Below are positions 5,714 through 40,627 of a stretch of 43,092 nt of DNA, piece after piece. The notes below the pieces were generated by a model, which saw nothing but the letters and a program-made list of their open reading frames with translations, was not told the DNA's origin and did no database searches. Both the position numbers and the translations under genes were made by a program. The stretch covers positions 1 to 43,092 of IMG/VR virus record IMGVR_UViG_3300003322_000685, one strand, 5' to 3'. The stretch comes from a virus. Each line of letters starts with the position of its first letter. The first letter of the stretch is position 1.

Positions 5714-5759
5714 GGTGGGGCGGGTGGGACTCGAACCCACGGCCGACGGATTATGAGTC
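5714..5759. repeat. attL core
   Basis: This 46-bp stretch equals 40212-40257 and corresponds to the tRNA 3' end up to the anticodon loop. It diverges at 5760, where the tRNA copy continues with the D-arm. The lone fragment cannot form a tRNA. The integrase gene reads towards it, the usual layout. Confidence 0.93.
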
Positions 5760-5987: not shown

Positions 5988-7571
5988 TCACACGTCCGCA
6001 GAAGCACTCTCCTCGCGATGCTTCCGCGCCCGGGGCACAACCAGAGCCGCCTTCTCCGCAATCTCCAGATCGACCTCCTTCAACAGACTCGTGTACGTGT
6101 TGGACGTCAGCCTGATGTCGTCGTGCCGCAGCGTCTCCTTGATCGCATGCAGGTCTCCCCCGCCCGCATGGATCAGCGTGGCCGCGCAGTGACGGAGGTC
6201 CCGCAGATTGATCGGCGGCAGATCCGCACGCCGGCAGATCCGGCGGAACTCGTCCGACACCTTCTCCGGGTGCAGCCAGGCCCCGTCGGCATCGACGAAC
6301 ACCTTGCCCGTGTCCGTCCAGTCCGCCACCTCCTTGCCCTTGGCCCGCTCTTTCGCCGCGTGCGCGTTCCACGCTTCCCGCTCCGCCGACTGCCGCTCCC
6401 GATGCGCTCGCAGCACCGCCACATTTAGCGAATCAAGAGCGATCGTGGCCGCACTGCTGTCCGTCTTCGGCGTGCCCTCCTCAGGCGTCCACTTCCGCAC
6501 CACAATGTTCTTGGCGATGGTGATGGACTGCCCGTCGAGATCGACGTCCCGCCAATCCTGCCCAACCGCCTCGCCGCGGCGCAGGCCCCGGAAGGCGATC
6601 AGGTGGAACAGCGCGTACAGCCGGTTCTCCTCGGCCTCATCGAGGAACGCGCCGATCTGTACCGGCGTCCACACCATGACCCCGGACGGCTTCTCCCCCG
6701 TCGCCCTCCAGTGCGCCACATGCTGGTCGGTCCACAGGACGGCCTTCGGCCGTTTGCCCGAGGCGAGTTCCAGATGAGAAGCCGGGTTGAACGTGATGAG
6801 CTGCCGCTTGATCGCGGCGTTGAGCGCCGTACGGAGCGTGGCCCGGACACGCTGCTGCGTCGCCGGTCCGGTGATCGTGCGGTACGGCGGCATCGCGGCC
6901 AGCTTCTCCCGCTCGACAGCGAGCCGCAGAGACTCGGCAGCCGGCGGCCGGGAGTTCTTGCCCCACTTCGCCCGCGCTTCCTGCTCCCGGCGTGCGGCGT
7001 TCTCGGCGGCGACGGTCTCGTTGGTCTCATCGATACCGTCGAAGAACTCCTGGACGTGGGCGACGCTCAGCTTGTCGAGCCGGTGGTGCCCGAGTCCGGG
7101 CGTGAGGTGGACGCGGATGTGGGATCGGTAGCCGTCGGTGGTGGTGCCTTTGGTCTTTTTCGTCGCGACCCACTGGTTGAGCCACTCGCCGACGGTCATC
7201 TTCCCGTCGAGGGGCACGCCGACGCCGAGCTTGCGGGACACCTCGCCCGGGTCGGGGATGGGGCCTCGCGTCTTCATCAGGCCCTGAAGGAGGTCACCGA
7301 CGCGGCGCTGTCCGTCCTCGTCGTCTCCCGGCAGGTCGAGGATGGCGCGGATGCGGTCGAGGTCGGCCTGGGCTTCCTTGACTCCCGCGTAGCCGGTACG
7401 CCGGAACCGTCGGCGCTTAGCTTCGGCGTCGACGGGCAGTTCCTGGTGCAGTTCGTGGTTGCCGTGACTGCGCTTCGACAGCTGTGGGCACTTGGTGCCG
7501 AGCCGTTTGCCGTCCGCGCTGCGGCACTCGCAGCGTTTGGTGATGCCGCCAGCGCGGCGAGACGTGGGCAT
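5988..7571 (-). CDS. int: Tyrosine site-specific recombinase (integrase)
   Basis: This enzyme cuts and joins attP and attB for integration. It has 527 residues. ATG 7571 is preferred over the longer frame because GGGAGGGG lies just upstream of it. The N-terminus has a Cys pair region (CECRSADGKRLGTKCPQL) typical of AICE and actinophage integrases. A SAM-like core-binding domain follows (MTVGEWLNQWVATKK to about residue 290, with an insertion). The catalytic domain has GLRRGE (first Arg), NLRDLRHCAATLI (second Arg; the usual first His of the HxxR box is Arg here) and the nucleophile Tyr in SNTYTSLL near the C-terminus. It reads towards attL from about 230 bp away. The HxxR change is worth noting, but related enzymes tolerate variation there. 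Confidence 0.93.
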   Translation of the reverse strand: MPTSRRAGGITKRCECRSADGKRLGTKCPQLSKRSHGNHELHQELPVDAEAKRRRFRRTGYAGVKEAQADLDRIRAILDLPGDDEDGQRRVGDLLQGLMKTRGPIPDPGEVSRKLGVGVPLDGKMTVGEWLNQWVATKKTKGTTTDGYRSHIRVHLTPGLGHHRLDKLSVAHVQEFFDGIDETNETVAAENAARREQEARAKWGKNSRPPAAESLRLAVEREKLAAMPPYRTITGPATQQRVRATLRTALNAAIKRQLITFNPASHLELASGKRPKAVLWTDQHVAHWRATGEKPSGVMVWTPVQIGAFLDEAEENRLYALFHLIAFRGLRRGEAVGQDWRDVDLDGQSITIAKNIVVRKWTPEEGTPKTDSSAATIALDSLNVAVLRAHRERQSAEREAWNAHAAKERAKGKEVADWTDTGKVFVDADGAWLHPEKVSDEFRRICRRADLPPINLRDLRHCAATLIHAGGGDLHAIKETLRHDDIRLTSNTYTSLLKEVDLEIAEKAALVVPRARKHREESASADV

Positions 7572-7700
7572 TTTTACCCCTCCCTGTACATGTTCCAGCA
7601 CATGCAGTGGCGGCGGAGAGCGTCCGACCCGCCGGACGCTTGACCCGTGCCGACCGGTGCCGCATAATCCGGTGCCAGCGGTACATCTGCGCCCATACTC

Positions 7701-9021: not shown

Positions 9022-9714
9022 ATGTCGATGATGGCACAGAGCCGCGTCCCGTCAACGGTGACACCGGACAACACCACCCCGACCGCCGATACCCCGGACA
9101 CCGGGCTCGGCCACCCCCGGCCCTACAACCTCGGCCTCGACGAGGTCATCGCGGCCCTGCCGGACGCCGTGAAGGAGGCGATGCAGAAGGCGATCCCCGA
9201 GAAGTACACCCCGGAGTTCGCCGAGAAGTTCGCCGCCACGATGATCGCCATCTTCTGCGCGGAAGAGCAGAACGCGGACGGCCCGCGCAGGTTCACCTTC
9301 ACCAACCGCCTCACCGGCGAGGAAGTGACCGTCCGCTGCATGGACGGATGCACCCTCGACCACAACGCGGACACCGAGACCCCCTCCTACCCGGCGGACG
9401 TCTACTGCCACATCTTCGGCGACGACGCCACCCTCCCCGTGGACGGCCCGCTGTGCGAGGGCAACGGACCGGAGGAGTTCCGGGTGCTGGGGTGGCACAT
9501 CGACGTCACCCCCTTCTCCAGCCAGATCGTCCAGCGCCAGCCCGTCGTGACCGTCGAAGTCCTCGACGACCACTGCATCGAGGACCTCGATCCCGACGGC
9601 CTGACCGACGTCATCGACGTGTTGCAGGCCCGCGTCGACTCCCTCCGCAACGCGCACACCCAGCTCGTCGAGCTGCGCGCCGCCTACCAGGCGGCCACCG
9701 GGACCAGCGCGTGA
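9022..9714 (+). CDS. Hypothetical protein, DUF6907-like C-terminal part
   Basis: The protein has 230 residues from ATG 9022. The first half is unrecognised (an Asp/Glu-rich segment, VIAALPDAVKEAMQKAIPEKY). The second half has a Cys/His pattern (CMDGCTLDH) followed by a beta-rich region and a final helix (DLDPDGLTDVIDVLQARVDSLRNAH). The same order, CxxxC/WCxxxH then a DxxxLxxLxxxxxxL helix, recurs in the proteins encoded at 16101-16472 and 17299-17745, so the three appear related. Such proteins are common in Streptomyces phages and AICEs and have no known role. The next start overlaps its stop. Confidence 0.7.
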   Translation: MSMMAQSRVPSTVTPDNTTPTADTPDTGLGHPRPYNLGLDEVIAALPDAVKEAMQKAIPEKYTPEFAEKFAATMIAIFCAEEQNADGPRRFTFTNRLTGEEVTVRCMDGCTLDHNADTETPSYPADVYCHIFGDDATLPVDGPLCEGNGPEEFRVLGWHIDVTPFSSQIVQRQPVVTVEVLDDHCIEDLDPDGLTDVIDVLQARVDSLRNAHTQLVELRAAYQAATGTSA

Positions 9715-11605: not shown

Positions 11606-13473
11606 CCACATCCGAGACGATCCAGCAGGGCGTCGACGCTGCCCTCGCCAAGCTCCAGGGCGGCGGCCAGCCCCAGGGTGCCGGGTCGTTCACGGTGCAG
11701 TCCGAACGGCTCGACGCGTACACGCGCAAGGCCCTCCAGGAGGAATGCGACCTGATCGTCCAGGCCCCGGACGGCGACCAGAACAACACGATCAACAAGG
11801 CGGCGTTCAACGTCGGCACGCTGGTCGGCGCGGGCGCACTCAGCGAGGCAGAGGCCCGGCAGGAGCTGTTGTCGGCGGCGCTGGCAGGCAACCACCCAGA
11901 GGTCAGGGCGCGCGCCAGCATCGACTCCGGGCTGCGCGCCGGGGAGCAGAATCCCCGAAACCCGTGGCCGCCCGTCTCCCGTGCCGACGGCATGCCCGAC
12001 CTCCGCGAGGTGCTGGGCGAGCAGGCGATCGACTGGAGCGACCTGGAGCACGAGTACCCGGAGTCCGGCGGCGAGCCGGCCGACAGCCCCGTCGACGAAC
12101 ACGAGGAGGAGCAGACCGGACCGGCCCCCGTGCCCGGCCTGATCCCCGAGGAGTTCTATGCCGCGCGCCCCGAGCTCGACCACATCCGGCGAGCCGGGCA
12201 CTCGCGCAGCCGGTCGGGTGACGTCGCCCTGCTGTCCACGCTCACGCGGCTCTCCTCTCTCGTGTCGCACCGCATCCGCGCGGACACCGGAATCGCCGGA
12301 TACGCCTCGCTGAACCTGTTCGGCGGGATCATCGGGCCGTCCGGCATCGGCAAGTCCACCGGGGTCGAGGTGGCTGACCGTCTCATGCCCGCGCCTCCCG
12401 AGCTGGACTTCCGTGACGGCCTCCCGCTCGGCTCCGGCGAGGGCCTGGCCGAGGTCTTCATGGGCGTCGTCGAGGAGGAGACGGGCGAGGTCCGCCGAGG
12501 CCGTGGCGGCACCGAGACGCCCGTGACCGTGAACGTCCGCAAGCAGGTCCGCCACAACGCGTTCTTCTACGTCGACGAGGGCGCCACCATTACCCGGCTC
12601 ATGAAGGAACGGTCCGGCTCAACCCTCGGCGAGACCCTCCGCAGCGCCGCCGTCGGACAGACCCTCGGTCAGACCAACGCGTCGAAGGACACCAGCCGGT
12701 ACATCCCCGGCGGGTCGTACAGCCTCGGGCTGCTCGTCGGCTTCCAGCCGGAGACGGTCGCCCCGCTGTTCGAGGAGGTCGCCGAGGGGACCCCGCAGCG
12801 GTTCGTGTGGGTGCAGGTCATCGACCCGGCCATCCCCGACGTACCGCCACCCTGGCCCGGAGAACTGCACGCGTGGAAGAACGCGGCCGAAGCCCCGCCC
12901 GTAGACGAGGCGAGCCGCTTCGTCCTCGTCACCTTCGACGAGTCCATCAAGGCCGAGCTCCGCGCCGCCGACCTCGCCAAAGTTCGCGGCCTGGTCGACC
13001 CCTCGGAGCTGAACCCGTTCGACTCCCAGGCCCCGGTCATGAAGGTGAAGTTGGCCTCGCTGCTGGCCGTCCTCGCCGGGCGGCGGCACGTGAACCCCGA
13101 GGACTGGCGTCTGGCCATGTTGCTCTGGGAGGCGTCGTGCGCAACACGGGATGCGGTCCTGGCGTACAGCGCGGCACAGCGACGTTCCGAGCAGGAGAGG
13201 CGGACGGTCGCACGCATCGAGGAGGAAGTGCGCGTCGACCACGCGAAGCAGCTTGCGGAAGACGCACGCGCGGATCGGGCAGTCGAGCGGCTGGCCAAGC
13301 GCATCGCGCTGATGGCTCGCGATCAGGGGCCGCAGACCCGTAAGTCGGTGCGCGCCAAGGTGGCGGGCCGGGACAAGAAGCACGTGAACGACGCACTCGC
13401 CTACGCGGTCCTGCGGGAGTGGGTCCTTGATGAGTCCGGCCGATATCCACCCGGTCCCGTCCCCCCGTCCTGA
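11602..13473 (+). CDS. P-loop ATPase, DUF3987-like replicative primase/helicase
   Basis: The protein has 623 residues from GTG 11602, overlapping the prim-pol gene. Residues ~35-125 (LDAYTRKALQEECDLIVQAP, GALSEAEARQELL) resemble the primase-associated helical domain found next to prim-pol domains. The Walker A motif is GPSGIGKST at 245-253. A Walker B-like FFYVDEGATI lies at about 321-330, followed by an arginine-finger region (RFVWVQVIDP). The C-terminus is a charged helix with a winged-helix-like end (KVAGRDKKHVNDALAYAVLREW). It probably unwinds DNA at the phage origin with the upstream primase. A repeat-rich candidate origin directly follows the stop codon. Confidence 0.8.
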   Translation: MTTSETIQQGVDAALAKLQGGGQPQGAGSFTVQSERLDAYTRKALQEECDLIVQAPDGDQNNTINKAAFNVGTLVGAGALSEAEARQELLSAALAGNHPEVRARASIDSGLRAGEQNPRNPWPPVSRADGMPDLREVLGEQAIDWSDLEHEYPESGGEPADSPVDEHEEEQTGPAPVPGLIPEEFYAARPELDHIRRAGHSRSRSGDVALLSTLTRLSSLVSHRIRADTGIAGYASLNLFGGIIGPSGIGKSTGVEVADRLMPAPPELDFRDGLPLGSGEGLAEVFMGVVEEETGEVRRGRGGTETPVTVNVRKQVRHNAFFYVDEGATITRLMKERSGSTLGETLRSAAVGQTLGQTNASKDTSRYIPGGSYSLGLLVGFQPETVAPLFEEVAEGTPQRFVWVQVIDPAIPDVPPPWPGELHAWKNAAEAPPVDEASRFVLVTFDESIKAELRAADLAKVRGLVDPSELNPFDSQAPVMKVKLASLLAVLAGRRHVNPEDWRLAMLLWEASCATRDAVLAYSAAQRRSEQERRTVARIEEEVRVDHAKQLAEDARADRAVERLAKRIALMARDQGPQTRKSVRAKVAGRDKKHVNDALAYAVLREWVLDESGRYPPGPVPPS

Positions 13474-13701
13474 GGGGGGGACAGGGGGGCGGGGGGACAG
13501 CGTTTGTCCCCCCTTTCTCTCCCGGGTAACCACCCAACTGGTTTCTCTTCGGAACTATTGCAAGCGCAACCAAGCCTCCTACCTGCACAAACAAAAGATC
13601 AAGATCAACTAAATACCGACTCACATAGCGCGCGAAGGAGGGGGGGACAAACAGCGTCCCCCCTGTCCCCCCTGTCCCCCCCTTGTCCCCCGTGGAGAGC
13701 C
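13474..13701. repeat. Iteron-like 9-bp G/C-run repeats, candidate replication origin
   Basis: On the left, GGGGGGACA occurs at 13475-13483 and 13491-13499, the latter facing TGTCCCCCC at 13505-13513 to form a 9-bp hairpin. On the right, GGGGGGACA at 13641-13649 faces three head-to-tail 9-mers (CGTCCCCCC 13655-13663, TGTCCCCCC 13664-13672 and 13673-13681) and a partial copy at 13685-13691. Between them lies a markedly AT-richer stretch (about 13514-13630). No gene is visible. Iterons flanking an AT-richer segment directly after replication genes suggest an origin; transcript termination is the alternative. Confidence 0.5.
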
Positions 13702-13896
13702 ATGAACGTCGACGACGTCGTAGCCGAGAAGATCGCCGCCGCCCGCGCCCGAGCCGAAGCCACCAAACGCCGACGCGCAGCCCTCACCGCCGCACGACAA
13801 TGCGGCCTCGCCTTCCGGCACGCCGCCAAGCTCCGCAACCAGAACCGCACAGAGGTCCCCCAAGGACCCCAGTCCCAGCAAAAGGAGAACCCCTGA
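13702..13896 (+). CDS. Small basic helical protein
   Basis: A 64-residue frame starts at ATG 13702 with GTGGAGAG just upstream and ends overlapping the SSB start by 1 bp. The sequence is one long basic helix ([25 protein letters not shown]) with a polar tail. It could bind DNA, but I recognise no family. Its place between the candidate origin and SSB suggests a replication-associated role. Confidence 0.6.
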
Positions 13897-14405
13897 TGGC
13901 AGGCGAGACCGTCATCACCGTCGTCGGCAACCTCGTCGACGACCCCGAGCTGCGCTTCACCCCGGCCGGCGCCGCCGTCGCGAAGTTCCGCATCGCGTCC
14001 ACCCCGCGCCGCTTCAACAAGACGACCAACGAGTGGGAAGACGGCGACGCCCTGTTCCTCACCTGCTCGGTCTGGCGGCAGGCCGCCGAGAACGTCGCCG
14101 AGTCCCTCGCCCGCGGCGTCCGCGTCATCGTCCAAGGACGCCTGAAGCAGCGGTCGTACGAGGACGGCCAAGGCGTGAAGCGCACCGTGTACGAACTCGA
14201 CGTCGACGAGGTCGGCCCGACCCTCGCCCGCGCGACCGCGAAGGTCACCAAGAACCCCAGCGGCGGCAACCGTGGGGAAACACCCGCAGGTGACCCGTGG
14301 GCCGGAGGAAAGCCGCCCGCCAGCCAGCAGGGCGGCGGCTGGGGCGCCCCGCCCGCCGGCCAGCAGCCCGCGCAGGGCGGCCACTCCGACGAACCCCCCT
14401 TCTGA
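13896..14405 (+). CDS. ssb: Single-stranded DNA-binding protein
   Basis: The protein has 169 residues. The OB-fold is clear over residues 1-110: [48 protein letters not shown] and [14 protein letters not shown] Gly/Pro/Gln-rich disordered linker leads to the C-terminal tip DEPPF, which matches the conserved acidic tail by which SSBs recruit replication and repair proteins. It coats single-stranded DNA during phage replication. Length is typical for actinobacterial SSB. The start overlaps the previous stop, and AAAGGAG lies upstream. Confidence 0.95.
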
Positions 14406-14419
14406 GCAGGGAGACTCTG

Positions 14420-15046
14420 ATGCTGCTGTGCGGCTTGTGCGAGCGGGAGATCGAAGCCGGCTACCTGTGTGAGCGGGACCGTGTTGCGCTCGCCGCCCGG
14501 CTCACCGAACTCCCCCAGCTGTACGCCGAGGTCGCCGAGTGCCTGGTTCCGCGCGGGCACGGGCTCGGCGAGATCGTCGCCACGAAGGCCGCGGCGGGGC
14601 CGAGGGCGCCGTTGAACGAGGACGTCATCGACACGGTCAACGCCGTCCGTGCGGCCGAGCTGACCCACCTGTGGCGTGTCGATGTTCAGCGGGTGAGGTG
14701 GCCGCAGCACTCCGCCCCGCCCCCGGCCTCCCTCGCGGCTGACTGCCGGTGGCTCGGTATGGAGCTGGAGTGGATCGCCGAGCAGTACCCGGGGGCGGGT
14801 GACCTCGCGCGGGAGATGCGGGAGCTGGAGGGGCAGGCCCGTTCGATCGTCGGGGACCCGGTGCCGCGCCGTCAGCGCATCGGCTACTGCGTGATGGTGA
14901 ACGGCCCTCAGGGCGGCACGTGCGGGGCGGTGCTGTGGCATCGGGCCGGTGAGCGCAAGGTGCGCTGCCTGTGGTGCGGGACGGTGTACGCATCCGAGCA
15001 GGACTTCCTGCTGCTGAAGCACTATCAGCCGGCGGAATCGGTGTGA
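14420..15046 (+). CDS. Hypothetical zinc-ribbon protein
   Basis: The protein has 208 residues from ATG 14420 with GGGAG upstream. An N-terminal CGLCEREIEAGYLCERD motif and a C-terminal pair of Cys motifs (CGAVLW, then CLWCGTVY) suggest two zinc-binding ends around a helical middle. This architecture is common in Streptomyces phages and elements, often beside SSB. No function is known. It may be a DNA- or protein-binding adaptor. Confidence 0.7.
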   Translation: MLLCGLCEREIEAGYLCERDRVALAARLTELPQLYAEVAECLVPRGHGLGEIVATKAAAGPRAPLNEDVIDTVNAVRAAELTHLWRVDVQRVRWPQHSAPPPASLAADCRWLGMELEWIAEQYPGAGDLAREMRELEGQARSIVGDPVPRRQRIGYCVMVNGPQGGTCGAVLWHRAGERKVRCLWCGTVYASEQDFLLLKHYQPAESV

Positions 15047-15051
15047 CCCCC

Positions 15052-15087
15052 TTGAATCTAACCCCGGGGTTGGATACGATCCTTTCA
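15052..15087 (+). promoter_or_regulatory. Promoter with embedded 12-bp palindromic operator
   Basis: TTGAAT (15052-15057) and TACGAT (15075-15080) are spaced by exactly 17 nt. A perfect palindrome, AACCCCGGGGTT (15060-15071), fills the spacer. The ATG at 15088 lies 7 nt after the -10 box and lacks a Shine-Dalgarno, so the transcript is probably leaderless. A protein bound to the palindrome would block RNA polymerase. Confidence 0.7.
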
Positions 15088-15330
15088 ATGGACGCCAAGC
15101 CCTGGCGGGCACGGATAGCCGAGGAAGAAGAGCTGTTGGAGCGGCTTCGAAACCTCGCCTCCGAATCCGCCACACGACGCGCTGAGGCCCTTCGCGACGG
15201 CGTGAAGGAGCTCGGCTCCGTCGCCGAAGTCGCCCGCGACCTCGGACGAAGCTGGAACGCCGTCGATAAAGCGCTCAAGAAGCAGGACCGCAAAACCGCG
15301 TCCCCTGCGGACGCCACCACAACCGAATAG
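15088..15330 (+). CDS. Small HTH protein, probably leaderless
   Basis: An 80-residue protein. The N-terminal half is a charged helix (RARIAEEEELLERLRNLASE). A helix-turn-helix follows (SVAEVARDLGRSWNAVDKALKK, residues ~44-65), of the kind that reads DNA as a dimer. The tail is polar. It has its own promoter with a palindrome inside, so autoregulation is likely. It could be a mid-operon regulator of the genes up to 18077. I infer the role from the fold and position only. Confidence 0.7.
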   Translation: MDAKPWRARIAEEEELLERLRNLASESATRRAEALRDGVKELGSVAEVARDLGRSWNAVDKALKKQDRKTASPADATTTE

Positions 15331-15433
15331 CCAGCGAGGGCCGGACGACAGCTCTCCACGGTGTTGGAGCACCGAGGAGGCGCGCGCGTCGCCCGACCCT
15401 CAACCGAACATCCTGACCTAACCAGGAGTCGGC

Positions 15434-15892
15434 ATGACCGATCTTTCCGCGCGCCCCGGTGCGCCCGCAAGTTCCCCGTCCCGTCGCCCCGTCGCCGTCG
15501 GCTTCATCCGCCGCCTTGCGGGCCGCACCCTCACCGTGCGCGTCACCCAGGCCGGCGTCACCGGCACCATCACCCGCGCCGACCAGGCCGAGGCCAAGGA
15601 CGCCGAGCAGGCCGCCGCCGAGCGCGAGACCACTCACTGCCGCCGCTGCCGCAAGCCGTTCGAGGCCGACAGCGACTGGGACGGCCGCGCCCGCTACAAG
15701 AGCACGCCCTGGTGCCGCTCCTGCGTCGACACCTGCCACGACGGGAGCGCCGAGCACGTCTGCGTGATCTGCAAGCCCTTCCGCTACAGCCAGCCGCCCG
15801 TCCTCAGGGGCGACACCATCGAGCGGTCCGTCCGCGCTGCTTTCCCGGTCATCGCCGCGTTCCTCGACGACGAGGAGGGCGAGACCCGGTGA
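15434..15892 (+). CDS. Hypothetical zinc-finger protein
   Basis: The protein has 152 residues from ATG 15434 with CAGGAG upstream. The middle carries CRRCRKPFEADSDWDGR, then CRSCVDTCH and CVICKPF: three Cys pairs that probably hold one or two zincs. The N-terminus has a Thr/Val-rich stretch (RTLTVRVTQAGVTGTITRAD). I do not recognise the family. The gene overlaps the next by 4 bp. Confidence 0.6.
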   Translation: MTDLSARPGAPASSPSRRPVAVGFIRRLAGRTLTVRVTQAGVTGTITRADQAEAKDAEQAAAERETTHCRRCRKPFEADSDWDGRARYKSTPWCRSCVDTCHDGSAEHVCVICKPFRYSQPPVLRGDTIERSVRAAFPVIAAFLDDEEGETR

Positions 15893-16104
15893 CCGCCTAC
15901 CACCCCCTCTTCCCGGACGGCGAGGTCGAGTCCGCGTTCGTCTCCGTGGACAGCACCCGCATCGTCGCCCGACAGATCCTCGGCGAGTACGCGGCCACCA
16001 ACATCCACGACCACACCGCGACCCTCCAGGCCGCCACCGCCTTCGGCACCATCCTCCGCGCCCTTCTCGACGCCCTCGACGCCGAACGGGGTGAGACCCC
16101 GTGA
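15889..16104 (+). CDS. Small hypothetical protein
   Basis: A 71-residue frame from GTG 15889, overlapping both neighbours by 4 bp. The C-terminus is an alanine/leucine-rich helix (TLQAATAFGTILRALLDALD). There are no recognisable motifs. Tight coupling on both sides supports it. Confidence 0.55.
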   Translation: MTAYHPLFPDGEVESAFVSVDSTRIVARQILGEYAATNIHDHTATLQAATAFGTILRALLDALDAERGETP

Positions 16105-16472
16105 ACGAACACCGCACGGTCACCCTGGCCACCGTCGACCACGGCGACGTCACCCTGCCCGAACCGTCCTGGTGCCGCGGCCACGCCGACCACCACCCCG
16201 GCAGCTACCTCTGCGACATCACCCACTACAGCGCCGAGACCGTCCTCAGCTTTCAGGGCATCGAACTGTTCCGGGTCATGGTCACCCAGTCCCCGCACGC
16301 CACCCACGCCGATCACCAGGCCGTCACCGCGTTTGTCGAGGAGCAGGGATACACCGGCGGCCTCGACCCCGTGGGTCTCTACGACCTCGCCGCGACCCTC
16401 GAAGCGCACGCCGACCGCCTCCGCGAGTACGCCGACCGCCTGACCGCGATCCGCGACGGGGGCGCCCGGTGA
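16101..16472 (+). CDS. DUF6907-like small protein
   Basis: The protein has 123 residues from GTG 16101. It has the W-C...H pattern (PSWCRGHADHHPGSYLC), a beta-rich core and a C-terminal helix (LDPVGLYDLAATLEAHADRL). It is similar in layout to the proteins encoded at 9022 and 17299. Members occur in Streptomyces accessory DNA and have no known function; a metal site formed by Cys and His is likely. It is coupled to the membrane protein gene. Confidence 0.65.
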   Translation: MNEHRTVTLATVDHGDVTLPEPSWCRGHADHHPGSYLCDITHYSAETVLSFQGIELFRVMVTQSPHATHADHQAVTAFVEEQGYTGGLDPVGLYDLAATLEAHADRLREYADRLTAIRDGGAR

Positions 16473-17302
16473 AGCGTGACCCGCTGCTGTGGGCCGCGCT
16501 CGCCGCGGTCCTCGTGGTCCTGGCGTCCGCCGAGTACCAGCTGGCGGTGGCGTGCGGCTTCGGCCGCTACGTCGCCGCCGGCGTCCCGGCCGCCCTGGAC
16601 GTGTACGCCGTCGCCGCCCTGCGCGCCCGCCGCGACGTCCTCGCGGTCGTCGCCACCCTCATCGCCGTGAACGCCGCCAGCCACCTCGTCGAGGTCGGCC
16701 TCCTGCCCGTCTCGGTGCCGCTCGTCGTCGCCGTCTCGGCGGTCGCCCCGCTCGTCCTATGGCGCGTCCACGGACTCTCCGAGGGGAAGGCGTTTGCGAC
16801 TCCCCCGCAAGGAGTCGCAAACGAACCCGAAACGGAACCGGCGCCGGAACCGGGTTCCGCCCTGGCGGAACCGGCACCGGAACCGGCGGAACAGATCACC
16901 CTGGAACGCGCCCCCGAACCCGTCGACGCCACCCCGGTCGCCCCCGTCCTCGGCCCGTGGACGCCCCTCGCGGAACTCACACGCGGAACCAGCGGAACCA
17001 GCAGCGGAACCGGCCCTGACTTGCTCGCCGATCACTTCCGTACCGCTGCGGAGGCGATCGGCGACCCGGCGGCGGAACACGCACCGGAACCGGTTCCGCC
17101 CACGGTTCCGTTGAGCGGAACCAGCGCCGACGACATCGACACCGTCGACAGCACCAACACCACCTTTGCCACCCGCGTCGCCACCGTCCGGAACTGGCTG
17201 AAGACCGAACCGGAACTCACCGGAACCGAGATCGGAACCCGCCTCGGCGTCTCTGACGGATACGGCCGCCGCCTCCTCCGCACCGCACGGGAGGACACAT
17301 GA
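16469..17302 (+). CDS. SpdB/DUF2637-like membrane protein with C-terminal HTH
   Basis: The protein has 277 residues from GTG 16469. Four hydrophobic segments lie at about residues 6-22, 34-50, 56-75 and 80-99. A long Pro/Glu/Gly/Thr-rich linker (about 105-225) follows, then a C-terminal HTH (VRNWLKTEPELTGTEIGTRL, ending RRLLRTARE). This architecture matches membrane proteins linked to plasmid spread (Spd proteins) in Streptomyces conjugative elements, so finding it in a phage is unusual. The linker DNA carries a dense cluster of GGAACC hexamers. One reading is a membrane anchor that grips DNA, perhaps its own gene, through the HTH. This is inference. Confidence 0.65.
   Translation: MKRDPLLWAALAAVLVVLASAEYQLAVACGFGRYVAAGVPAALDVYAVAALRARRDVLAVVATLIAVNAASHLVEVGLLPVSVPLVVAVSAVAPLVLWRVHGLSEGKAFATPPQGVANEPETEPAPEPGSALAEPAPEPAEQITLERAPEPVDATPVAPVLGPWTPLAELTRGTSGTSSGTGPDLLADHFRTAAEAIGDPAAEHAPEPVPPTVPLSGTSADDIDTVDSTNTTFATRVATVRNWLKTEPELTGTEIGTRLGVSDGYGRRLLRTAREDT
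16834..17239. repeat. Cluster of 14 GGAACC/GGTTCC hexamers
   Basis: GGAACC starts at 16834, 16846, 16867, 16879, 16985, 16994, 17006, 17086, 17117, 17222 and 17234; GGTTCC at 16853, 17092 and 17104. Most lie in CGGAACC. They occur in two reading frames, giving Glu-Pro or Val-Pro in one and Gly-Thr or Gly-Ser in the other, and in both orientations. The repeat therefore seems held at DNA level rather than protein level. Confidence 0.75.
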
Positions 17303-17745
17303 CCACCCCGCCCGCGCACCCCAGGAAGGACAGCACCGTGCCCGATGACCGACTGTTCACCATGCCCCGGCGCACCGGGGGAACCCTGGCCGTGCAGTGC
17401 CCGCCCTGGTGCTCCCAGCGGCACAGCCCCAAGGACTACGTGGAGTGGGCCTGGCACGAGGGACCGGCCATCGAGTTCACCGGCCCGGGTGACTACTACG
17501 AGCACTTCGACGGCGGCGAGCCGTACGAGGTGATGTGGGCGTGCATCGCCGCCGAGCCCGACCACACGACCGGCACCTACGGGCGCCCCTACATCTACTT
17601 CGACACCCTCAGCGCCGGCCAGGGCGGACGCCTGGACGTCGAGCAGGCCGACGCGCTCATCGCGGACCTGCGGACCTACACGGACCGGTTGCAGCAACTG
17701 CGCGACCACCTCGCGCAGATCACCGACACCCAGGGGGAGCAGTGA
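17299..17745 (+). CDS. DUF6907-like protein
   Basis: The protein has 148 residues from ATG 17299, overlapping the previous stop as ATGA; an internal GTG at 17338 is possible. It carries CPPWCSQRHSPKDYVEWAWHEG, a Cys/His metal-binding-like motif, a beta-rich middle, and the helical end (VEQADALIADLRTYTDRLQQL). It is the best match of the three DUF6907-like proteins in this operon. Function is unknown. Confidence 0.7.
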   Translation: MTTPPAHPRKDSTVPDDRLFTMPRRTGGTLAVQCPPWCSQRHSPKDYVEWAWHEGPAIEFTGPGDYYEHFDGGEPYEVMWACIAAEPDHTTGTYGRPYIYFDTLSAGQGGRLDVEQADALIADLRTYTDRLQQLRDHLAQITDTQGEQ

Positions 17746-18077
17746 CCACCGAGACCAGCAGCAGGATCACCGAGGGCTGCATCGGCGGCTCCGTCGACAT
17801 GCTCGCCTTCGCGGTCCTCGAAACCCTCTGCGGCGAGCAGCCGTTCACCGAGGTCTACGACGACGAACTCGACTGCGGCACCATGCGCGTCCGCATCCGC
17901 ATCGAGGTCGAACCGACCGGCCTCACCCCCGAACAGGCGGGCGCGGCCGTCGTCGCGGGCGACTCGGCGGAACCCGAGCACGTGCGCGCCGCCGCCCGCC
18001 AGGTGATGGCCGGCGGCCCCGGCCTGGAGGACGCCCGCGCCCTCCTCTCCGGCACCGGCCCCTGGCCCTTCCCGTAA
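17742..18077 (+). CDS. Hypothetical protein, last gene of early operon
   Basis: The protein has 111 residues from GTG 17742, overlapping the previous stop; GGGGGAG is upstream. It is acidic and mixed alpha/beta (CIGGSVDMLAFAVLETLCGEQ, then VRIRIEVEPTGLTPEQAG). I do not recognise it. The structured non-coding region begins directly after it. Confidence 0.55.
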   Translation: MTTETSSRITEGCIGGSVDMLAFAVLETLCGEQPFTEVYDDELDCGTMRVRIRIEVEPTGLTPEQAGAAVVAGDSAEPEHVRAAARQVMAGGPGLEDARALLSGTGPWPFP

Positions 18078-18255
18078 CCCTCCCGACCGGCGGCCCCGGA
18101 GTGCGTGTGACAGCGCTCCCCGGGGCCGCTCCCCTGCCCCCGCCCAGCCGCGACTAGTTCGGCTCTGAGCTGCGGGAACTAGCCCCCGGCTAGGCCCGAC
18201 TGGAAGCCGGCTAAGCCACTCCTCCCCCGAGGCGTAGCCGCCGCCCCTTCTGTCG

Positions 18256-18324
18256 GCTGTAGCTACAGCGTCTACGCAGGTCACAGGCAGGCCCGCTACA
18301 CCCGTCTACCGCTGTAGCTACAGC
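18256..18324. repeat. Two copies of palindrome GCTGTAGCTACAGC
   Basis: Perfect 14-bp palindromes lie at 18256-18269 and 18311-18324. GTCTAC half-sites lie between them (near 18270 and 18304). They are likely to bind a dimeric protein. Confidence 0.65.
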
Positions 18325-18355
18325 CTCCCGCCCCTCTCAGGCAACCCCTCCCCTA

Positions 18356-18447
18356 CCCCTTCCGGGCCCCTCTCGGGCTGTTGTCGGCGCAGGTCAGCGC
18401 GGCAACAACAACGACGACGACAGCCCGGGGGAGGGGCCCGGAAGGGG
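18356..18447. terminator. Long imperfect hairpin, about 30-bp stem
   Basis: The arm 18356-18386 pairs with about 18415-18447. The outer 17 bp (CCCCTTCCGGGCCCCTC with its complement) are perfect, then a 2-nt bulge, then CGGGCTG with CAGCCCG and a further few pairs. The loop is about 30 nt. It probably ends the early transcript or forms a structured RNA. Confidence 0.6.
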
Positions 18448-18541
18448 TTAGCTGCATGAGGCACGGACATGAACGCCTCCGAGCGCCTCAAGGGATCGCC
18501 TGAAAGCTCCCCGCCCCTCGCGGATCGACCACACTGGCCCC

Positions 18542-18739
18542 ATGAACGACCTCGCACCACCCGGCTACCTCACCGCCGCACAAACCCGCCAAGCCCTCGG
18601 CATCACCGCCGGCGCCCTCCGCAACCTCGTCTACCGAGACCAGCTCACCCGCGCAGGCGGCACCGAACGACGCCCCTGGTACAAGGCCACCGACGTCGCC
18701 GCCATCGCCGCCAAACGCGCAGAACGCACCGCCGCTTGA
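18542..18739 (+). CDS. Small helix-turn-helix DNA-binding protein
   Basis: The protein has 65 residues from ATG 18542. It is a MerR/AlpA-like HTH: GYLTAAQTRQALGITAGALR, a wing with GGTERRPWYKATDV, and a final helix. No Shine-Dalgarno is visible. CACACT (18530-18535) lies 6 nt before the ATG and could be the -10 box of a leaderless transcript. It follows the palindrome-rich region and precedes the late genes, so it may regulate late transcription or be an Xis-type factor. The role is inferred. Confidence 0.65.
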   Translation: MNDLAPPGYLTAAQTRQALGITAGALRNLVYRDQLTRAGGTERRPWYKATDVAAIAAKRAERTAA

Positions 18740-18807
18740 CCGCAGGTCAGGGCTGTGTGACGATCGCCGTGAACAACTGTGCCCGCACGCTGGCACCACA
18801 GACTTCC

Positions 18808-18835
18808 CGAAGCCCCGGCCCCGGTCGGGGCTTCG
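18808..18835. terminator. Rho-independent-like hairpin
   Basis: CGAAGCCCCG (18808-18817) pairs with CGGGGCTTCG (18826-18835) around an 8-nt loop. An outer inverted repeat, CAGGGCTGTG (18748-18757) with CACAGCCCTG (18842-18851), encloses it, so two alternative structures may form. It follows the 65-residue HTH gene. Confidence 0.65.
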
Positions 18836-18919
18836 TCATGTCACAGCCCTGTTGAAAGACACACCCCAGCACAGGTGTCCCGCCACACTGGACCCCACAC
18901 ACCACCCAAGGGGGACACC

Positions 18920-19180
18920 ATGGGGTTCATCAACGACGCCAAGGCGCAGACCGCAGGTGCCGAAGCACGCAAGGCCAGAGAACGCGGACAGGCCGTCCTC
19001 GTCTACAAGTTCATCGAGGCCAACACCAACAGCAAGGCCACCGCACCCATGACCGGCATCGCCGACCAGATCCAGGCCGTCGAACAACAGGGCTGGCGCC
19101 TCGACCAGATGGCCGCCGCCGAGGGCAAGGCTCTCACCGGCGAACGCGTCGCCCTCGTCTGCCTGTTCCGCGCCATCTAA
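18920..19180 (+). CDS. Small hypothetical protein
   Basis: The protein has 86 residues from ATG 18920 with AAGGGGG upstream. It has an N-terminal basic helix (AEARKARERGQAVLVYKFIE), then IADQIQAVEQQGWRLDQMAA and VALVCLFR. The QGWRL...VCLFR pattern is like the DUF4177 group of small phage and host proteins of unknown function. It probably belongs to the start of the late region. Confidence 0.65.
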   Translation: MGFINDAKAQTAGAEARKARERGQAVLVYKFIEANTNSKATAPMTGIADQIQAVEQQGWRLDQMAAAEGKALTGERVALVCLFRAI

Positions 19181-19244
19181 CTTCGGCGCCCACCGGCCCG
19201 GCCCTCACCGAGCGGCCGGGCCTCGCCATGTCCGGGAGGTGACC

Positions 19245-19538
19245 GTGGCCACCGACCGCAGCGAACTCACCTCCTACGAGTTCCGGCAGACACGCGCCCG
19301 CATCCTCGCCGCCTCCGACATCTGCATCGTCTGCGGCCACGGCCGGGCCGACGCCGTCGACCACATCCACCCCGTCTCCAAGGGTGGCGACCGCCGCGAC
19401 CCCGACAACCTCGCACCCATCCACGGCGTGGCCGGATGCCCCGTGTGCCTGCGGAAGTGCAACAGCGAGAAGGGCGACCGGCCCCTCGCCGACGTCGTCC
19501 AACTCGTGACCAGCGTCGACTGGTTCGCCGGACCGTAG
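19245..19538 (+). CDS. HNH endonuclease
   Basis: The protein has 97 residues. GTG 19245 is preferred because GGGAGG (19234-19239) is then well spaced; GTG 19239 overlaps that signal. HNH motif: CIVCGHGRADAVDHIHPVSKG (DH with the metal-binding His), DNLAPIH (the N), and CPVCLRKCNSEKGD; the Cys pairs hold a zinc. Phage HNH enzymes beside terminase genes help the terminase cut DNA at cos sites. Its place directly before the terminase genes fits that role. Confidence 0.88.
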   Translation: MATDRSELTSYEFRQTRARILAASDICIVCGHGRADAVDHIHPVSKGGDRRDPDNLAPIHGVAGCPVCLRKCNSEKGDRPLADVVQLVTSVDWFAGP

Positions 19539-19734
19539 AGACGCAGCACGCGAGGAACGAACGGCGACCCTCAAGGTCGAGCCGCCCACAAATGTGCAGG
19601 TCAAAGCCTCGAACTGATCCGGCAGGGCGGGGATCTCCCTCGGATTTTTAGAAATCGGACATATCGCAACCCCGCGCCCAGCTTTCATTTTTCTCCCCCC
19701 GGGCCGATGACACCGGATGATCAAGGAGGCCGGG
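19539..19734. other. Gap before terminase; candidate cos region
   Basis: About 195 bp without a gene, with a locally AT-rich core (about 19640-19700) containing GATTT and AAATC arms at 19643-19656, and a C-run at 19695-19700. In HNH-associated cos phages the cos site lies near the terminase small-subunit gene, so this is the best candidate. No cut site can be read from sequence alone. Confidence 0.35.
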
Positions 19735-19986
19735 GTGGCTGATCACACCCGTCCGCTGTCCGAGCTGCGCGACTCCGGCCTCCTGTGGCTGATCAACCGG
19801 ACCGTGTTCCACCCACGCGGCCTGGCCCTCGCGCTCGCGACCGACGACGTCGGCGCGATCGTCGGCTGGCACCTGATCGGGGACGGCAGCGAACCGATGT
19901 GGTTCGCGCCAGAAGACGAGGCGGACCTTTTCGCTCGCGCCACCGCCACCCTGCGCCAGGACGGAGGCCGCCATGGGATCGGTTGA
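19735..19986 (+). CDS. Small hypothetical protein before terminase
   Basis: The protein has 83 residues. GTG 19735 is chosen because AAGGAGG (19723-19729) lies 5 nt upstream; ATG 19717 would place this signal inside the gene. Sequence: LSELRDSGLLWLINRTVFHP, LALATDDVGAIVGWHLIGDG, EADLFARATATL. This pattern is seen in small Streptomyces phage proteins next to terminase. Function is unknown. It overlaps the terminase small subunit by 14 bp. Confidence 0.65.
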   Translation: MADHTRPLSELRDSGLLWLINRTVFHPRGLALALATDDVGAIVGWHLIGDGSEPMWFAPEDEADLFARATATLRQDGGRHGIG

Positions 19987-20248
19987 GGACGCTGTACGTG
20001 CTGACGTCGAGCAGCTCGGGGACCTCGTCGGTGTCGAGCCCTCACTGACTGAGCTGGCGTACGCGCTGGCCGGCCGGATCGACGCCGCGCGCACCGCCGA
20101 GTGCGAGCAGTGCGGCGAGCCGATCGCCCAGGACGACCGCCTCCTTCCTCAACTGGCCCGCGAGCTGCGGCAGACGCTCGCCCAGATCTTGGAGGGACGG
20201 GCGCCTGACGATGACGACGACCTCGGAGACCTGGGCTCCCCCGAGTAG
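19973..20248 (+). CDS. Terminase small subunit
   Basis: The protein has 91 residues from ATG 19973. It is helical (SVEDAVRADVEQLGDLVGVE, TELAYALAGRIDAA, LARELRQTLAQILEG) with one CEQCG zinc-like pair and an acidic tail. The layout matches small terminase subunits of actinobacterial siphoviruses. It would recognise the packaging site and load the large subunit. Overlap with the large subunit gene (38 bp, other frame) supports translational coupling. The assignment rests mainly on position and pattern. Confidence 0.75.
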   Translation: MGSVEDAVRADVEQLGDLVGVEPSLTELAYALAGRIDAARTAECEQCGEPIAQDDRLLPQLARELRQTLAQILEGRAPDDDDDLGDLGSPE

Positions 20249-40211: not shown

Positions 40212-40257
40212 GGTGGGGCGGGTGGGACTCGAACCCACGGCCGACGGATTATGAGTC
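40212..40257. repeat. attR core inside the tRNA gene
   Basis: The 46 bp identical to attL, forming the 3' part of the tRNA from the anticodon loop to just past the acceptor end. Because the crossover restores the gene, integration leaves a working tRNA. Confidence 0.93.
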
Positions 40258-40465: not shown

Positions 40466-40476
40466 CGTTCAGCATG

Positions 40477-40549
40477 CTCCCCCGACTGGACTCGAACCAG
40501 TAACCTGCCGGTTAACAGCCGGCTGCTCTGCCAATTGAGCTACGGAGGA
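40477..40549 (-). tRNA. tRNA-Asn (GUU), copy nearer prophage
   Basis: A 73-nt cloverleaf on the minus strand: acceptor TCCTCCG with CGGGGGA, D-arm AGCTCAATTGGCAGAGC, anticodon loop CTGTTAA (GUU) and T-loop GTTCGAGTC. It appears identical to the next copy. Confidence 0.95.
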
Positions 40550-40554
40550 TCGAG

Positions 40555-40627
40555 CTCCCCCGACTGGACTCGAACCAGTAACCTGCCGGTTAACAGCCGG
40601 CTGCTCTGCCAATTGAGCTACGGAGGA
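40555..40627 (-). tRNA. tRNA-Asn (GUU), second tandem copy
   Basis: It has the same 73-nt sequence as 40477-40549, 78 bp apart with a 5-bp spacer. The pair is probably transcribed as one unit ending at 40443. Confidence 0.95.

Follow-up and report, generated by a model that had tools for sequence, protein, structure and literature searches.

A predicted membrane-anchored helix-turn-helix protein of a putative Streptomyces prophage and its relatives, with an array of short DNA words in its own gene that changes with the DNA-binding domain

SpdA2 of pIJ101, one of the described proteins closest to the one reported here, binds a palindrome located in its own gene and affects the segregational stability of the plasmid, but not its transfer (PMC4170104). 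AlpA of the Corynebacterium prophage CGP3 binds 24 alpS repeats and is thought to help bring the phage DNA to the membrane (PMC4446434). The phi29 protein p16.7 is a membrane-located organizer of phage DNA (PMC4974454), and Spd1 of SLP2 and ParABS have overlapping roles in the movement of plasmids within hyphae (PMC13245405).

The DNA analysed in this study (the window) is the whole of the IMG/VR viral record IMGVR_UViG_3300003322_000685, 43,092 nucleotides long. One of its genes, referred to as the array gene, encodes a protein with predicted N-terminal membrane helices and a C-terminal helix-turn-helix (HTH) domain, and contains a dense array of short repeated words (Table 1). SpdA2 and its sps sites are similar in that a DNA-binding protein of a Streptomyces mobile element has repeated sites in its own coding sequence; however, SpdA2 is zinc-finger-like, its sites consist of a 12-bp palindrome, present two to three times and conserved among plasmids, and no membrane domain is described for it (PMC4170104). 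The sps palindrome CGTCACGTGACG had no matches in the window at up to two mismatches. AlpA/alpS shares with the window a prophage DNA-binding adaptor with about 24 short repeats close to its gene, tied to the positioning and replication of phage DNA, but its repeats are located upstream of the operon, and its partner is the actin-like filament AlpC rather than a membrane anchor in the same chain (PMC4446434). The role proposed below for the window protein resembles that of p16.7, an integral phage membrane protein with DNA-binding activity that brings the viral DNA to the membrane; p16.7, however, acts through single-stranded DNA and terminal protein, and has no cognate array in its own gene as described (PMC4974454). 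SpdB2/DUF2637-type and Spd1 proteins are spread proteins that are, like the window protein, encoded by Streptomyces elements, and no self-encoded arrays were reported for either type in the papers found (PMC4170104, PMC13245405). None of SpdA2, AlpA, p16.7 and Spd1, as described, unites a membrane anchor and an HTH with an array inside the gene that varies together with this HTH. Likewise, the rule that the array follows the HTH was not reported in the literature searched, which left most subscription journals outside, and an earlier report may exist.

Table 1. Location of the array gene, its domains and sites, and other features of the window. Numbers followed by (-) are sites on the minus strand.
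Feature	Position	Strand	Basis or remark
Array gene, 277-aa protein with predicted membrane anchor and HTH, GTG start	16469..17302	+	ORF; full-length alignment with homologues L002-L014; AlphaFold2 model
Predicted membrane domain, residues 1-106, helices 5-28, 38-53, 57-75 and 83-105	16469..16786	+	AlphaFold2, pLDDT ~70-80
Linker, residues 107-232, disordered, Pro/Glu/Gly/Thr-rich; most of the array in its DNA	16787..17164	+	AlphaFold2
C-terminal HTH, residues 233-275, LTGTEIGTRLGVSDGYGRRLL	17165..17293	+	Three-helix fold, pLDDT 87-93 (AlphaFold2)
Array, 19 CGGAAC (16 on +, 3 on -), 14 extended to GGAACC/GGTTCC	16833..17238	+	Codon nulls
Group 1, six sites	16833..16892		16833, 16845, 16854(-), 16866, 16878, 16887
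Group 2, four sites	16971..17010		16971, 16984, 16993, 17005
Group 3, five sites	17073..17121		17073, 17085, 17093(-), 17105(-), 17116
Group 4, four sites, in HTH-coding end	17189..17238		17189, 17211, 17221, 17233
Origin-like region, after primase/helicase gene	13459-13692		Inverted TGTCCCCCC/GGGGGGACA repeats round AT-rich stretch, GC 0.44
Integrase	5991-7601		
46-bp perfect direct repeat	5714-5759 and 40212-40257		Right copy within tRNA-Met gene

The window reads as an integrated Streptomyces prophage. In addition to the integrase, it encodes a Prim-Pol, a helicase-like protein, an SSB, a terminase, a portal and a tape measure protein, and the two copies of the 46-bp repeat are likely the attL and attR of the prophage, at tRNA-Met.

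The array gene had been described, from the sequence alone, as SpdB-like. This turned out to be a matter of resemblance: in the AlphaFold2 model, a soluble tail does come after several membrane helices at the N-terminus, as in DUF2637/SpdB2-like proteins, but no match to PF10935 above the cut-off was obtained and, unlike SpdB2/DUF2637-type proteins, the window protein is not accompanied by a TraB partner in the window. DUF2637 is nonetheless the nearest named family, reached through the distant relative L110, which scored 18.9 bits against PF10935/DUF2637 (curated cut-off 22.8). The window protein itself matched no family in Pfam and PHROG, and a tblastn search of the INPHARED phages with it gave no matches. 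Its predicted membrane domain shows three hydropathy peaks, while the pLDDT of the linker falls below 50 at residues 107-186 and 198-228. The C-terminal domain adopted the same three-helix fold when modelled alone, and nearly all of its Foldseek matches were DNA-binding domains of the HTH type (FapR, Lrp, DeoR, CENP-B), none of them with E <= 0.001, as is expected for a domain of only about 45 residues.

The sequence-only reading had counted 14 GGAACC or GGTTCC hexamers at 16834-17239, where by composition well under one would be expected. The count is exact (11 on the plus and 3 on the minus strand), and the dinucleotide expectation of 29.4 hexamers for the 43,092 bp does correspond to about 0.3 per 406 bp. 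Near misses containing CGGAAC had been mentioned as additional sites; the true core is CGGAAC with C or T as the next base, which describes the sites better than GGAACC and has 19 copies. The densest 400 bp of the array contain 17 CGGAAC, against 3 in the next densest window of the 43 kb. The sites start at codons 122-255, most of them within the disordered linker and the others at the start of the HTH, and they fall in four groups; a 12-bp palindrome, GGAACCGGTTCC, lies at 17086-17097 in the third. In the genes of the CGGAAC class, neighbouring sites on the same strand are most often spaced by 9, 10, 12, 13, 21 or 31 bp, and in nearly all homologous loci the cluster of words is restricted to the array gene. 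As for its origin, tandem duplication was rejected, in that TRF shows just short two-copy repeats here.

Because the linker of the window protein is rich in Glu-Pro and Gly-Thr, the array might simply reflect a repeated peptide written in a fixed codon style. When synonymous codons were drawn from the phage usage, the mean was 0.8 hexamers and the maximum 5 in 3000 draws; when the gene's own synonymous codons were shuffled, the mean was 4.4 and the maximum 10 in 5000 shuffles. Such codon-shuffled controls had been suggested as a check, and neither reproduced the 14 hexamers observed. In a scan for the most enriched of all hexamers, CGGAAC reached a z of 6.8, whereas the highest value under the null was 4.5. 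It should be noted that the codon nulls were built on the window codon table mixed half and half with that of each gene, and are therefore approximate for other hosts.

Codon choice also depends on context. In the 27 genes of the CGGAAC class, whose codon counts are not independent because the whole clade shares ancestry, the GAA:GAG ratio was 223:7 for Glu codons with CG before and C after them, against 50:234 for the remaining Glu codons; Gly codons in the Gly-Thr context were GGA in 144 cases and another codon in 14 (n = 158), against 0:24 in other genes of the window. The window gene alone gave 9:0 and 6:0, respectively, for the Glu and Gly-Thr contexts. In addition, the antisense word GTTCCG was found 52 times against 2.5 expected, an enrichment of about 20-fold, and over 25 homologues the sites use all six combinations of frame and strand (206/136/7 on the plus strand and 44/17/2 on the minus strand), with Glu-Pro/Glu-Leu and Gly-Thr as the main readings. 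The earlier argument that two orientations and more than one frame could not be explained by a protein repeat thus holds for the family, in which the DNA word itself is kept; the opposite outcome, an amino-acid repeat kept with other codons, was not what the homologues showed. With both strands and several frames enriched, the signal is at the DNA level, and the array is under DNA-level selection. The codon-style or protein-repeat explanation, which the codon nulls and the context test refute, is also at odds with homologues that have other HTHs and use other words (see below), and we give it practically no weight. A signal acting in the mRNA only is ruled out by the antisense enrichment, and no Rfam family matched in the region 13000-20000.

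Across the 25 homologues, the sites occupy 63 alignment columns, 41 of which are used by three genes or fewer; therefore, sites are gained and lost singly, which also speaks against tandem duplication. In one array-bearing gene (L039:6001-6810), the frame shifts within the array from a Glu-Pro-rich to a Gly-Thr-rich reading while the word persists in both frames, and the HTH sits in a different frame; this may be a frameshift or a sequencing error.

Viral contigs yielded sixteen relatives. All those with the same HTH have 9-14 GGAACC, and genes whose membrane domain has diverged but whose HTH is the same retain CGGAAC. Three relatives (L015, L016 and L017) have nearly the same membrane domain, another HTH and zero GGAACC; the first uses GGATAC, and the other two use words of the GCATCC/GCAGCC type. 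The comparison was extended to 109 non-redundant phage, plasmid and chromosomal genes of the Streptomyces group, from viral contigs, Streptomyces genomes, a wider sample of the order, genome contigs and plasmids. Arrays were significant (p <= 0.01) in 70 of the 109, against 1.1 expected by chance, with z >= 5 in 53. For the HTH GTEIGTRLGVSDGYGRR, the top word was CGGAAC or GGAACC in 21 of 22 genes, the odd one being the plasmid gene L110, with CCGGTA/CGGTAC. The HTH SIRALRDTYSIGQPRAQRIQ goes with GGATAC (4/4 genes) and SLRRLQSELRIGQKRAQRIQ with GCATCC, on nearly the same membrane domain as the GTEIGTRLGVSDGYGRR and SIRALRDTYSIGQPRAQRIQ genes. Similarly, DEAKDVLGVSRATAGRRLE is paired with GTCTCA, PSPTALATEFGGLDPEWVRNQI with CGGTA/ACCGGT, TRRAIRPHLRKHNIKVSNELF with GGACCA, and SRVRTTLSVNQDRAIRLL and its neighbours with GTAC-centred words, many of them on plasmids of about 60-330 kb. 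Related HTHs have related words: a distant plasmid relative whose HTH is 49% identical to that of the window class has 17 copies of CGGTAC, with one base changed, and the IGQxRA class of HTHs is found with GGATAC, GGGTAC or AGGTAC. Arrays are weak or missing in some HTH classes (L061-type, L097-type and the AICE-like L093-type), and L145, whose HTH is fairly similar, has no array.

The same pattern was evident in pairwise comparisons of the 70 significant genes. For pairs with a membrane-domain identity of at least 0.7, array similarity was 0.67 when the HTH identity was at least 0.5 (n = 263 pairs) and 0.14 when it was below 0.3 (n = 101 pairs), the latter being the value also found for pairs unlike in both domains; pairs with an HTH identity of at least 0.5 and less similar membrane domains gave 0.48. 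The partial Mantel correlation of array with HTH, given the membrane domain, was 0.365 (rho, p 0.001) for the 51 significant genes of the first sample, and the same partial rank correlation was 0.337 in the larger one. Linker dipeptides track the word as well (ET with GTCTCA, RT with CGTACG, GT or RT with CCGTACC, DT with GGATAC, EP or GT with GGAACC), so that the linker looks like a translation of the array. The amino acids of the linker would then follow the DNA word because this low-complexity segment is largely a read-through of the array.

These natural domain swaps, in which the word changes with the C-terminal HTH on a nearly constant membrane domain, suggest that the HTH very probably binds the sites within the gene that encodes it. 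Binding by this domain had been one of the proposals of the sequence-only reading, and it is the part that the swaps support, at the level of sequence co-variation. Two other proposals were not supported. No sign of a recombination hotspot was found, and a recognition site for an FtsK-type TraB protein is very improbable. According to the latter idea, the array would be a clt-like site at which an FtsK/TraB-type translocase acts in transfer or spread, and the protein a helper of the Spd type. TraB/clt is indeed a cluster of short words read by a membrane-associated DNA-handling protein, and TraB binds short non-palindromic repeats (PMC5133688); the architecture of the window protein is like that of Streptomyces Spd membrane proteins, and most array sites point in one direction. 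However, TraB/clt requires an FtsK-like motor and uses a different word, GACCCGGA in pSVH1 (PMC5133688). A domain of the FtsK/SpoIIIE type (PF01580) is missing from the window and from 18 of 20 related phage records, and GACCCGGA does not occur in the array gene, its 9 copies being scattered over the window against 5.4 expected, even if another TraB may read other words. Moreover, the word follows the HTH of the protein itself.

The position of the gene raises the question of replication, as the genes for the Prim-Pol, the helicase-like protein and the SSB are found a little upstream. The lambda gene O carries origin iterons inside itself, and the array could in the same way be part of the phage replication origin, with the protein as a membrane-bound initiator. 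One related locus is in favour of this: in L014, CGGAAC also forms inverted pairs around an AT-rich stretch after the primase/helicase gene. This non-coding cluster (L014:2860-3095, TGTCGGAAC...GTTCCGACA pairs) is the only strong second CGGAAC cluster found in related loci. The window, however, has a separate origin-like region, which makes the array unlikely as an origin; L003 shares this origin-like layout with another word, TGTTCCCCCC, and replication modules vary, with a Prim-Pol encoded in 8 of the 20 records, whereas the array gene is retained. We therefore regard the origin explanation as decidedly unlikely, though in L014 it may hold.

If the HTH binds its own gene, autoregulation has to be considered, with the bound array blocking or shaping how the operon is transcribed, while the membrane anchor just limits or senses this activity. 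The sites do lie within the gene of the protein, autoregulation is common among HTH proteins, and all the co-variation data are compatible with it. On the other hand, some 10-29 copies lie deep in the coding sequence, away from the promoter, no such arrays were found upstream of the gene, and the membrane anchoring would be left unexplained. Clusters of 10-29 sites fit better with a nucleoprotein patch than with an operator, and autoregulation as the main role appears unlikely.

The reading that we prefer, with a probability of roughly 0.6, is that of a membrane-anchored, sequence-specific DNA-binding protein that has the DNA coding for its own linker as its site array. The four-helix N-terminal domain would lie in the membrane, where the protein is predicted to sit from its structural model, and the C-terminal HTH would recognize CGGAAC(C/T), so that about 19 sites in one gene could form a dense nucleoprotein patch fastening the phage DNA, or plasmid DNA in the relatives, to the membrane. 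Since the protein probably binds its own gene and its membrane location is predicted, the DNA of the element would be tied to the membrane at the array gene itself. Such a patch might serve to place the element in the cell, to assist in its replication, or to maintain and spread it along the hypha. Membrane-DNA tethering had already been proposed for this gene; the architecture and the co-variation of array and HTH are in line with it, the topology is a prediction, and as the purpose of the system we favour tethering slightly, possibly with autoregulation on the side.

A ParABS partition system is not supported for this prophage, in that no ParA-type Walker ATPase (PF13614) was present in 19 phage records, including the window; PF13614 was found on the three examined plasmids bearing related arrays. 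Integration of the prophage, with its likely att site at tRNA-Met, makes a partition role less obvious. A terminase is encoded in 15 of the 20 viral records. With FtsK nearly absent, ParA confined to the plasmids and replication modules that vary among these elements, the function is independent of TraB, of ParA and of any single replication system.

We see even odds for a broader proposal, that these genes form a widespread class in Streptomyces phages and plasmids, in which the linker-coding array co-evolves with the HTH encoded by the same gene, gene and centromere-like site are one object, the DNA word dictates the amino acids of the linker, a swap of the HTH is accompanied by replacement of the array, and, in phages, a single gene provides a membrane tether without an NTPase. 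If this is true, many Streptomyces phages and plasmids would use a single, self-contained gene that supplies both the protein and its centromere, and the disordered linker would exist largely because the underlying DNA has to contain the binding sites. As each gene pairs its own word with its own HTH, the family amounts to dozens of pairs of an HTH and its putative target site, natural examples from which the match between HTH residues and the bases they read could be learned. A direct and inexpensive test would also become available of the way in which temperate phages and plasmids that lack TraB or ParA stay attached to the membrane of filamentous bacteria. DUF2637, the nearest named family, is mentioned in a single paper of the literature searched.

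Some minor features of the window and of the relatives were also noted. The window contains three DUF6907 genes (9022-9714, 16101-16472 and 17299-17745), the latter two directly flanking the array gene, and two identical tandem tRNA-Asn genes at 40476-40627 (unit 78 bp, 100% match). After the operon, in the non-coding stretch 18255-18325, the palindrome GCTGTAGCTACAGC is present twice, 55 bp apart; a strong inverted repeat rich in G+C comes next (18355-18372/18431-18448). Two plasmid relatives (L111:6903-8996 and L112:6753-9023), with relatives on 62 PLSDB plasmids, encode proteins of about 700 aa, with a long coiled-coil-like N-terminal region before the membrane domain, and have 26 GTAC-centred words in their densest 400 bp.
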